This document shows, piece after piece, positions 61,507 to 64,000 of a DNA stretch of 64,000 nucleotides; positions within the stretch are counted from its first letter, which is position 1; each line of letters opens with the position of its first letter. Under the pieces are notes generated by a model. The model saw nothing but the letters and a program-made list of their open reading frames with translations. It did not search any database and was not told the DNA's origin. Made by a program: the position numbers and the translations under genes. Origin of the DNA: Oceanobacillus sojae (lineage in GTDB: Bacteria > Bacillota > Bacilli > Bacillales > Amphibacillaceae); NCBI RefSeq assembly GCF_900162665.1, contig NZ_LT727810.1, forward strand, positions 589,067 through 653,066. Direction: 5' to 3'.

Positions 61507-61811
61507 ATGAAGGCTGGTATGGATCCGTTTTACAGAATGAAAAAAGCGGATGTACTGGCAATGTTTCGTATGGTAAAGGATATGCCGGCAAAGGACAAGG
61601 TGATAAATATTGCATTCTCCGTCTGTATCGCTACGGTATTTGGGGACCATTTATCTTTTACAGCCAACTTCCAGCCCAATTTAATTTTGCCGATTATGCT
61701 GGGGAGAAGATTGTGGCAGCTTCCCTTTCTATTTATCTGGCGTTTAAATTGTCTGTTCGAAAGGCTGTGCAGTTAGAAAAAGAGGACAAACTGCAAGCGC
61801 AAAAGGAATAA
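61507..61811 (+). pseudogene. Frameshifted small membrane protein gene
   Basis: From ATG 61507 (or 61519) the frame encodes MDPFYRMKKADVLAMFRMVKDM and a hydrophobic stretch ending around FTANFQPNLILPIML near 61700. Then it turns into unnatural sequence rich in Arg and Leu. The -1 frame from that point reads AGEKIVAASLSIYLAFKLSV and a charged tail to TAA 61811, a sensible membrane helix. The two parts together make about 100 residues. One base lost or gained near 61690 explains this. Product unknown. Confidence 0.55.
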
Positions 61812-61932
61812 TTTAAAGACTGGCTATTTTCTTGTTCTAATGTAAAGTTCTTGTTAATTTTTGCTTAATTAGTAATTAAAAGTTCAGCTCCATGCTATAC
61901 TTAATTACTTAAAGAAAAAATGAGGGCGGAAT

Positions 61933-64000
61933 ATGCTGATGAATAAAGATTATTTTCAGATGAAACAGGAGCAGGCAACAGCGTACTTTCAAATTTTGCA
62001 GGCTCAAATACAACAAGAAAACTTTGCGTTAACATTGGTAGAAACGCTTCATCATTATCAACAATCCAAAAGAAAAACTTGGCTGAATGTAGATAATTGG
62101 AAGCATCAGCCGGGCAAAACATTTATTTTCCAGCTTGCGAAAACGGGCCAGCTTGATTCCTATTTAGAGCGTAGTATTTCATATATCTATTTTCGCGACC
62201 TTGGCAGAGATATTACTTCGGAAGCAATGCAAAAAAGAATAGCTGTTGTTACAGAAGGTGTCAAAAATTATTTGAATAATAAAGAACAGCAAGTACCTTT
62301 CCATGTTACAGAGCTGTATCAAATGGCAGAAAAAGAATCATTGGAAGAGGTTTTCTTTTGGGTATCCGATAAACTGAAGCATGTTTCAGCAATACTTCCT
62401 GACGGATTAGATAAAAATGAAGCGAAAAGAAAAATAATGAAAATTATAGCCGGGATCGTCATGCATGAATTTGAAGAATTAGATGACGGGCTGTCCAAAG
62501 AAACAAGAAGGAAGCTGTTAGATCAGGCGGTTCGTACAGGCTATTATTATGGTTTGACATATCCACTGATTGATGATGTTCTCGATGCGGATATGTTAAC
62601 AGCAGCTGAGAAGAAGTCCTTTGCTTATTTTATCCAGCAAACATTATTAACAGGGGAAGTGCTTCCAGTAAAAGCGGATGACTGGCAGAATAAGCATTGG
62701 GATTTCATTTCTGCAGTGCACGAGGAACTGTCAGAAGCGTTTTATTATTTAAAGTCATGTCAGCCGGAAGAAAATAGACAGATTTTCCTGGAAAATGCTT
62801 ATTTATTTTTCGAAGCACAGGAATTGGACCGGCAAAAGCGGTTAGATAATAACAATTTTACAAATAAAGAACTGTATACATCCGTTATTTTAAAATCAGC
62901 TTCCTCAAGGCTGATAATCCGTTCTTTTAAACCTTTTTCAGAGGTCGAGAATATAGAAACAAATATGTTTTATTATGGGATATATAACCAGCTTGCTGAT
63001 GATTTAACAGATTTGGAGGAAGATCTTGCAAATAATAATGTTACGCCATACACGTATTTTGTTACGTATAGTAAACAGAATACAGGCTTAATAAATCCCT
63101 TTGCCATGTATTGGTCTGTTATTTATTACTTTATCCATAAGCTTTATCCGGGAAAGACAGAGATAAGAGATATTATTTTGGACCGGGCGGTTAATGGTCT
63201 GAAGCGTCTGAAGGCAAGATTAGGAAAAGAACGTTATCAGGCCTTCAAAGAGCAATTTTCCTTTGATGCTGATTTTGACAAAGCTTTAGAAAAAATAGTA
63301 AACCGCAGTCACAATGTGGCATTCTTTGATAAATGGATTCGCGATCAATTTTTAGATACATTAAAACAAAATAAGCAATTAAAGGTACAGTTCATAGCTA
63401 AAATGAAAGCTATAAAAGAACCATTGGAAGAGCATCTTACCTTTGAATCGAAGGGAAATGCATTAAAAGAAGCAGCAAACTACAGCCTGTCAGGCCATGC
63501 CAAGCGTCTACGTCCGATTATGACATGGATCATGGCAAAGGAAGGGCTCCAGCTTCCAGATAATGTAATATTGCCATTAGCAAAATCGGTAGAATTTATG
63601 CATACAGCCTCCCTGATTTTTGATGATTTGCCATCCCAGGATAATGCTTCTGTAAGAAGAGGCAAGCAGACATTACATGAGAAATATAACCATGCAACAG
63701 CTGAACTGACCGGGCTCTGGTTAACACAGCGTGCAGTAGAGGAACAGGCTGCTATCAGGCATCAAGATTCCAATCGGCTTTTGGAGCTTATTGCTTACTC
63801 CACCCGGACAACGCAAAAAATGTGTCAGGGCCAATTCTTTGACCTGCATGCAAAAGGAAGCTCTTTAACACTTGGTGAGTTAAGGCAATTATCGGTTTAT
63901 AAAACCGGCCTTGGATTTGAAGCGGCGCTGATGATGCCGCTTATTATTGCCGGGGAGTCCGATGAGCGTAAGCAGGCAGTTAAGGAGTTAGCTTATCACG
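61933..64000 (+). CDS. Two-module class I isoprenoid synthase (prenyltransferase fusion), 3' truncated by window edge
   Basis: At least 689 residues, open to the window end. From about residue 440 on it is a polyprenyl synthetase: SGHAKRLRP at 520-528 and the first Asp-rich motif FDDLPSQD (Asp564, 565, 570) followed by RRGKQTLHEKY, which is farnesyl/geranyl-type. Residues 1-440 are a second all-helical domain. It carries DDVLDAD (214-220) and, 136 residues later, NQLADDLTDLEED (352-364), spaced like the two metal motifs of class I terpene or squalene/phytoene synthases. GAGGGCGG precedes ATG 61933. Substrate and product are unknown. The second Asp-rich motif of the C-terminal module lies beyond the window. 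Confidence 0.75.
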   Translation, partial: MLMNKDYFQMKQEQATAYFQILQAQIQQENFALTLVETLHHYQQSKRKTWLNVDNWKHQPGKTFIFQLAKTGQLDSYLERSISYIYFRDLGRDITSEAMQKRIAVVTEGVKNYLNNKEQQVPFHVTELYQMAEKESLEEVFFWVSDKLKHVSAILPDGLDKNEAKRKIMKIIAGIVMHEFEELDDGLSKETRRKLLDQAVRTGYYYGLTYPLIDDVLDADMLTAAEKKSFAYFIQQTLLTGEVLPVKADDWQNKHWDFISAVHEELSEAFYYLKSCQPEENRQIFLENAYLFFEAQELDRQKRLDNNNFTNKELYTSVILKSASSRLIIRSFKPFSEVENIETNMFYYGIYNQLADDLTDLEEDLANNNVTPYTYFVTYSKQNTGLINPFAMYWSVIYYFIHKLYPGKTEIRDIILDRAVNGLKRLKARLGKERYQAFKEQFSFDADFDKALEKIVNRSHNVAFFDKWIRDQFLDTLKQNKQLKVQFIAKMKAIKEPLEEHLTFESKGNALKEAANYSLSGHAKRLRPIMTWIMAKEGLQLPDNVILPLAKSVEFMHTASLIFDDLPSQDNASVRRGKQTLHEKYNHATAELTGLWLTQRAVEEQAAIRHQDSNRLLELIAYSTRTTQKMCQGQFFDLHAKGSSLTLGELRQLSVYKTGLGFEAALMMPLIIAGESDERKQAVKELAYH

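Follow-up and report, generated by a model that had tools for sequence, protein, structure and literature searches.

The gene at the right edge of a 64,000-nucleotide stretch of Oceanobacillus sojae DNA (RefSeq assembly GCF_900162665.1, contig NZ_LT727810.1, positions 589,067 to 653,066; hereafter the window) encodes a fusion protein in which two class I isoprenoid-synthase-like modules follow one another in a single chain. Our preferred interpretation, to which we give a probability of roughly 0.55, is that this bacterial protein is a bifunctional class I isoprenoid synthase built of two alpha domains: the C-terminal domain would make a prenyl diphosphate of C20 or longer, and the N-terminal domain would ionize it to a terpene. 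The reading frame opens at an ATG at position 61933 on the plus strand, which also carries all of the domains and motifs given below, downstream of a likely ribosome-binding site (GAGGG, 61923..61927), and crosses the right edge of the window (61933..64000). Reading on in the source genome (G000; 4.8 Mb in 18 contigs) placed the end of the gene 245 bases outside the window, with the stop side at G000:C15:653311 (whole gene L005:6000-8312), which gives 770 codons and a protein of 770 aa. A first-pass annotation made from the window sequence had proposed that a Firmicute carries tandem modules of this kind, arranged as in fungi with the cyclase first and the prenyltransferase second, and the complete frame and both domains bore this out.

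The N-terminal domain comprises residues 1-471 (61933..63345) and the C-terminal domain residues 491-770, of which the window holds those up to residue 689 (63403..64000). Between them lies a junction of low model confidence at approximately residues 472-490 (63346..63402), which is about 10-40 residues long depending on the measure used: the PF00348 match begins at residue 510 and the NF045485 match at residue 491, and the model has helices at 468-476 and 481-501. In the whole protein, only the C-terminal polyprenyl synthase domain, an ordinary one, exceeds a Pfam cut-off; the N-terminal domain matches no family at that level. The full-length model had a predicted template-modeling score (pTM) of 0.52, and its domain arrangement, being unreliable, was not used.

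Conservation was read from an alignment of 61 sequences, namely the window protein and 60 distinct homologs whose N-terminal domains are 39-94% identical to that of the window. The C-terminal domain is a trans-isoprenyl diphosphate synthase by every motif checked (GKRxRP, DDxx(xx)D, RRG, KT, and the second DDxxD). PF00348 covers residues 510-747 (E 7.8e-53). The best NCBIfam match was the farnesyl diphosphate (FPP) synthase model FPPsyn NF045485 (E 1.3e-57; 195 bits against a cut-off of 275), followed by the geranylgeranyl diphosphate (GGPP) synthase CrtE at 143 bits, and the closest solved structures by sequence were bacterial FPP synthases and the GGPP synthase Sy-CrtE. GHAKRLRP (residues 521-528; 63493..63516), the isopentenyl-diphosphate-binding motif, and FDDLPSQD (563-570) are both where they had been reported. 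K524 and R527 are invariant and R525 is present in 60 of the 61 sequences; D564-D565-x4-D570, R575-R576, K657-T658 (63901..63906), and D698-D699-x2-D702 are likewise found in all 61.

One position speaks to chain length. The residue five places before the first Asp pair, A559 in the window protein (63607..63642 together with the first Asp-rich motif DDLPSQD, 564-570; located by alignment and by comparison with PDB chains and FPP synthases), is Ala in 61/61 fusions. It is Tyr in the FPP-synthase-type protein encoded elsewhere in the same genome (L003) and in all ten such proteins from ten fusion-bearing genomes. Among the five PDB alignments listed, it is Tyr in three FPP-synthase-type chains and Met in two, both of them Sy-CrtE. 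Under the established rule for chain-length control, a small residue at this position lets the chain pass C15; the product of the C-terminal domain is thus probably GGPP (C20) or longer. The fusion gene is one of four places in the genome that match PF00348, and its C-terminal domain is distinct from the housekeeping FPP synthase, which is encoded separately.

We used molecular modeling to look for a fold in the N-terminal half. The AlphaFold2 model (predicted local distance difference test score, pLDDT, 75.6) has the Asp motifs at helix ends and extra N-terminal helices at residues 1-130. In the VIA structure comparison, the 50 best matches by Z were all class I terpene synthases, with 235-319 residues aligned. 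Foldseek gave an E value of only 4.8e-3 for the same model; prenyl, terpene, or squalene synthases made up 49 of the 50 matches listed (Rv2173 included), the remaining one being 9a4c_B. Among these listed matches, the class IB structure 6loo, which is linked to the YtpB group, had both the highest query template-modeling score (0.40) and the lowest root-mean-square deviation (8.5 Å). The predicted N-terminal half thus resembles the isoprenoid-synthase alpha fold. In sequence, the domain comes, weakly, closest to PF00348.

The first Asp motif of the N-terminal domain, DDVLD (residues 214-218; 62572..62586), lies within DDVLDAD at 214-220, and the second, NQLADDLTDLEED, occupies residues 352-364 (62986..63024), both just as the first-pass annotation had placed them. 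All of the motif residues (D214, D215, and D218; N352, Q353, D356, D357, D360, and D364) are present in 61/61 sequences. With the fold predicted as above and these residues unchanging in homologs, neither of the two outcomes that the first-pass annotation had named as counting against its proposal occurred. The spacing had been given as 136 residues; we measured 138 from D214 to N352 and 142 from DDxxD to DDxxD. The aligned pair is 139-142 residues apart in all 61 sequences, some of which have a third DDxxD elsewhere, and the C-terminal domain's own pair is 134 residues apart in P0001.

In the chimeric terpene synthases of fungi, the N-terminal domain has a DDxxD/E motif and a canonical Asn/Ser/Glu (NSE) triad, and the first-pass annotation had likened the spacing seen here to that of DDxxD and NSE/second Asp motifs. 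An NSE reading of the second motif did not hold up: N352, D356, and D360 have NSE spacing (i, i+4, i+8) but not NSE residues, and the motif is of the QxxDDxxDxxxD prenyl-synthase type (QLxDDxxDxxxD in 61/61), which makes the domain prenyl-synthase-like. Two stand-alone relatives of the domain, L077 and L078, keep Q353, D356, D357, D360, and D364 but not N352, and we prefer the DDxxD reading for this reason. The two motif regions, residues 204-218 (YYGLTYPLIDDVLD) and 346-360 (YYGIYNQLADDLTD), look alike and may be a relic of an old duplication within the class I fold. As a candidate for a duplication within the domain itself, however, this was rejected, since hhalign of the halves aligned only 15 columns (E 0.11, not significant).

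Invariance in the N-terminal domain extends beyond the Asp motifs to 67 of its 478 positions in the 61 sequences, including R166, K167, K170, R300, K321, R326, R330, and R425. R166-K167-x-x-K170 (62428..62442) forms a basic patch on the helix that precedes the DDxxD helix in the model, and seems to sit roughly at the place that GKRxRP takes in prenyl synthases. K321-S322 (62893..62898; S322 in 60/61) is a candidate equivalent of the prenyl-synthase KT diphosphate-binding pair. This degree of conservation makes it improbable that the domain is catalytically inert and acts on its partner only by setting product length, oligomer state, or regulation, as the small subunit of heterodimeric heptaprenyl diphosphate synthase does: a scaffold would have no need of nine unchanging Asp/Asn/Gln positions. 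In favor of such a role, almost every genome that has the domain carries it joined to a prenyl synthase, and distant stand-alone relatives are rare in our samples.

The strongest rival to a terpene-forming role is that the N-terminal domain also couples prenyl units: it would join the prenyl diphosphate from the C-terminal domain to another one, head-to-head, irregularly, or as further elongation, and so yield a long isoprenoid of linear or cyclopropyl type. We consider this possible, though clearly less probable than ionization to a terpene. The domain has two DDxxD motifs, as trans-prenyl synthases do, instead of DDxxD plus NSE, and its invariant R166, K167, K170, and K321 with S322 may recall second-diphosphate and KT sites. 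PF00348 was the only recurrent Pfam match, found at E <= 1 in 33 of the 61 N-terminal domains (best 8e-5), with the next family reaching 5/61. Against coupling, the domain lacks both GKRxRP and an RRG after the first motif, and the window's copy scored 20.5 bits against the PF00348 cut-off of 27 (residues 267-364 on profile positions 92-194, second motif to second). PF00494 had no match to the window's N-terminal domain at E <= 10 and was absent from the 25 of 56 families listed for the 61 members. Comparison with profiles of CrtM-type and other PF00494 proteins was also null, although the method says little.

That last point comes from a control. The N-terminal domain profile found nothing among YtpB (28 sequences), CrtM-type (eight of the nine fetched, one having been lost to a length filter), or other PF00494 (12) proteins, but prenyl synthases likewise found neither CrtM nor YtpB in the same comparison. 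Since known class I families do not find each other by this method, its nulls for our domain are uninformative. Against 22 prenyl synthases, the profile gave a local match of 27 columns with one motif (E 2e-4). A complication is that local prenyl-synthase profiles, including those run with hmmsearch, place their second motif on the first motif of the N-terminal domain. The possibility that the domain is a copy of the C-terminal one was dismissed when profile comparison of the two gave no match.

Other searches for sequence relatives returned little. The window's N-terminal domain matched none of the Pfam terpene-synthase families, and PF10776 gave no match to it at E <= 10. In the PDB sequence set, a single-sequence search retrieved the FPP synthase 5h9d only (E 0.66), a 10-row profile retrieved one unrelated chain, and a 61-row profile retrieved 10 chains (E 0.068-2.6) with no terpene synthase among them; one of the 10 was the heptaprenyl diphosphate synthase chain 9kp1_B (E 1.7).

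We propose the following mechanism for a bifunctional enzyme that forms a terpene. The C-terminal domain would condense dimethylallyl diphosphate and isopentenyl diphosphate to an all-trans prenyl diphosphate, most likely GGPP or a longer one. The N-terminal domain, which we see as a diverged class I domain of prenyl-synthase type, would bind that diphosphate through Mg2+ at its two DDxxD motifs, ionize it, and quench the cation, giving a cyclic or linear terpene hydrocarbon or alcohol. The fusion would keep the intermediate close to the second site and so at a higher local concentration, much as the chimeric terpene synthases of fungi do. The computations show the fusion, its spread, the domain content, the conservation of the motifs, and the predicted fold; the chain length, the ionization, the fate of the cation, and channeling are inferred from these. 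Cyclization by the N-terminal domain is a guess on our part, and coupling or elongation is a serious competing possibility.

The nearest precedent in layout is the fungal prenyltransferase–terpene synthase (PTTS) group. A 2021 paper terms chimeric terpene synthases with an N-terminal cyclase and a C-terminal prenyltransferase unique to fungi (PMC8307374). In the fungal fusicoccadiene synthase PaFS, a flexible linker of about 70 residues connects the two alpha domains (PMC8190136). The available portions of a 2023 review (PMC10563020) and of a 2025 study mining endospore-former genomes (PMC12654598) contain no bacterial chimera. Titles and the starts of abstracts in the open-licence literature yielded no bacterial fusion of prenyl synthase and terpene synthase either, which is weak evidence. 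A different bacterial fusion has been reported, between a terpene cyclase beta domain and a haloacid dehalogenase (HAD) phosphatase (PMC12365925).

Like PaFS and its kin, our protein has an N-terminal class I alpha domain and a C-terminal prenyl synthase alpha domain in one chain, and the latter hints at a product of C20 or longer. Unlike them, it is bacterial, its N-terminal domain carries a pair of DDxxD motifs but lacks a canonical NSE, a profile of that domain, which is long (about 470 residues), retrieved no terpene synthase from the solved chains, and the junction is shorter than the PaFS linker. By analogy of layout it may work alike, but we do not file it as a PTTS member, because the NSE triad is missing and the front domain is of uncertain homology. 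The front domain resembles the trans-isoprenyl diphosphate synthases of PF00348 (IspA, CrtE, HepT) in its two DDxxD motifs and, weakly, in profile comparison, but differs from them in falling below the Pfam cut-off, in its length, and in lacking GKRxRP and RRG. With bacterial class I terpene synthases (epi-isozizaene synthase, BjKS, LrdC) it shares the predicted fold and Asp motifs at helix ends, but not a canonical NSE triad or a Pfam terpene-synthase match. YtpB (PF10776, tetraprenyl-beta-curcumene synthase) is a similar case in that terpene synthases of Bacillus relatives can lack ordinary terpene-synthase sequence; our domain is unlike it in having no PF10776 match, and most fusion genomes of the family hold a separate YtpB.

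The fusion is widespread. Strong N-terminal domain matches were found in 55 of 159 genomes of the same family (a 56th match, in G107, was weak and lay in a 323-codon frame), in 46 of 397 genomes of the order sample (eight of them already counted in the family), and in 8 of 398 genomes of the phylum sample, which include the source genome, six that belong to a single other family of the class, and G662 elsewhere in the phylum. This makes 100 different genomes. Named carriers are Oceanobacillus and Gracilibacillus, and the closest named relative, a protein of Oceanobacillus sojae NBRC 105379, is 94% identical over all 770 residues. No match was found in 72,556 plasmid records. For the 61 sequences above, the alignment covered both domains; the remaining copies were judged by frame length.

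A single uninterrupted frame of 771-859 codons is present in 95 of the 100 genomes, and pairwise distances in the N- and C-terminal halves are strongly correlated (r = 0.94 for the 61 sequences), as expected if the halves travelled together. A chance fusion or an assembly or frame error is therefore hardly credible, even though five copies (G022, G108, G011, G083, and G492) are short or contain stops. Broken frames are seen in L028, near the domain junction, and in L018, within the prenyl synthase domain, through mutation or sequencing error.

The N-terminal domain can also exist alone. L077 and L078 (L114), from two genomes of one other family in the phylum sample (f171), are distant stand-alone relatives (E about 1e-6) in frames of 399 and 425 codons. 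In both, the second motif is retained, whereas the first reads DNxLDD. No Pfam family matches L078, and no prenyl synthase was recognized by eye among the frames of at least 100 codons beside it.

The idea that the fusion replaces YtpB was discarded: 48 of the 55 fusion genomes in the family also have YtpB, compared with 70 of the 104 without the fusion (kinship ignored). The seven that lack PF10776 are G000, where there was no match at E <= 0.001, G073, G077, G078, G085, G087, and G089. These seven are also the genomes whose N-terminal domains are 76-100% identical to that of the window.

We see even chances that this is the first bacterial assembly-line terpene synthase, a chimera of two alpha domains with an origin separate from that of the fungal ones, whose front domain, derived from a prenyl synthase, became a terpene synthase or coupling enzyme of a new class, and which is widespread among Bacillus relatives, where it makes C20 or longer terpenoids so far not known from them. 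If so, the assembly-line design would have been invented independently in a conserved bacterial family, which would be handy for studies of channeling. Bacillus relatives would then carry a terpenoid pathway hidden from domain searches, since only an ordinary polyprenyl synthase domain exceeds the Pfam cut-off, and Oceanobacillus and many of its relatives may make terpenoids that have so far not been looked for. The motifs of the N-terminal domain, intermediate between those of prenyl and terpene synthases, would also bear on how one class became the other.

The gene neighborhood offers few clues to the product. No neighbor was common to all of 40 loci from diverse genomes, so there is no obvious tailoring pathway. 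This lack of conserved terpene-tailoring neighbors fits a third role for the N-terminal domain, prenylation of a non-isoprenoid acceptor (aromatic, indole, peptide, or glycerol phosphate) as in other class I-like prenyltransferases, and so does a class I-like site with both Asp motifs; the extra helices at 1-130 could form an acceptor site. We regard this role as unlikely, since no acceptor gene or acceptor-binding domain was recognized and nothing specific speaks for it.

Gaps upstream of the fusion range from 39 to 596 bases, and on this basis it is probably transcribed alone. In one related genome (L115), a 404-codon frame lies 39 bases upstream. Five promoter patterns sought in 40 upstream regions were not clearly more frequent there than in shuffled sequence (0, 2, 1, 0, and 4 versus 0.58, 1.76, 1.56, 0.36, and 5.74).

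In the window, the fusion gene is preceded by a P-type cation ATPase gene and a remnant of the ethanolamine-utilization gene EutH, an 89-codon frame at 61507-61776 that covers EutH positions 283-337 only (PF04346, E 1.8e-19). Downstream are a small gene on the opposite strand and then a sensor kinase and response regulator pair.

The most frequent neighbor families in the 40 loci were SelO (9/40), an ATP-binding cassette (ABC)-type ATPase (9/40), and a short-chain dehydrogenase (8/40). The gene for SelO, a protein adenylyltransferase, lies within 7 kb of the fusion on the same strand, at varying distances, in L079, L080, L081, L082, L090, L091, L094, L095, and L100 (PF02696 was confirmed for the L079 copy). 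SelO is usually a single-copy gene, and for that reason its nearness to the fusion looks like more than chance.
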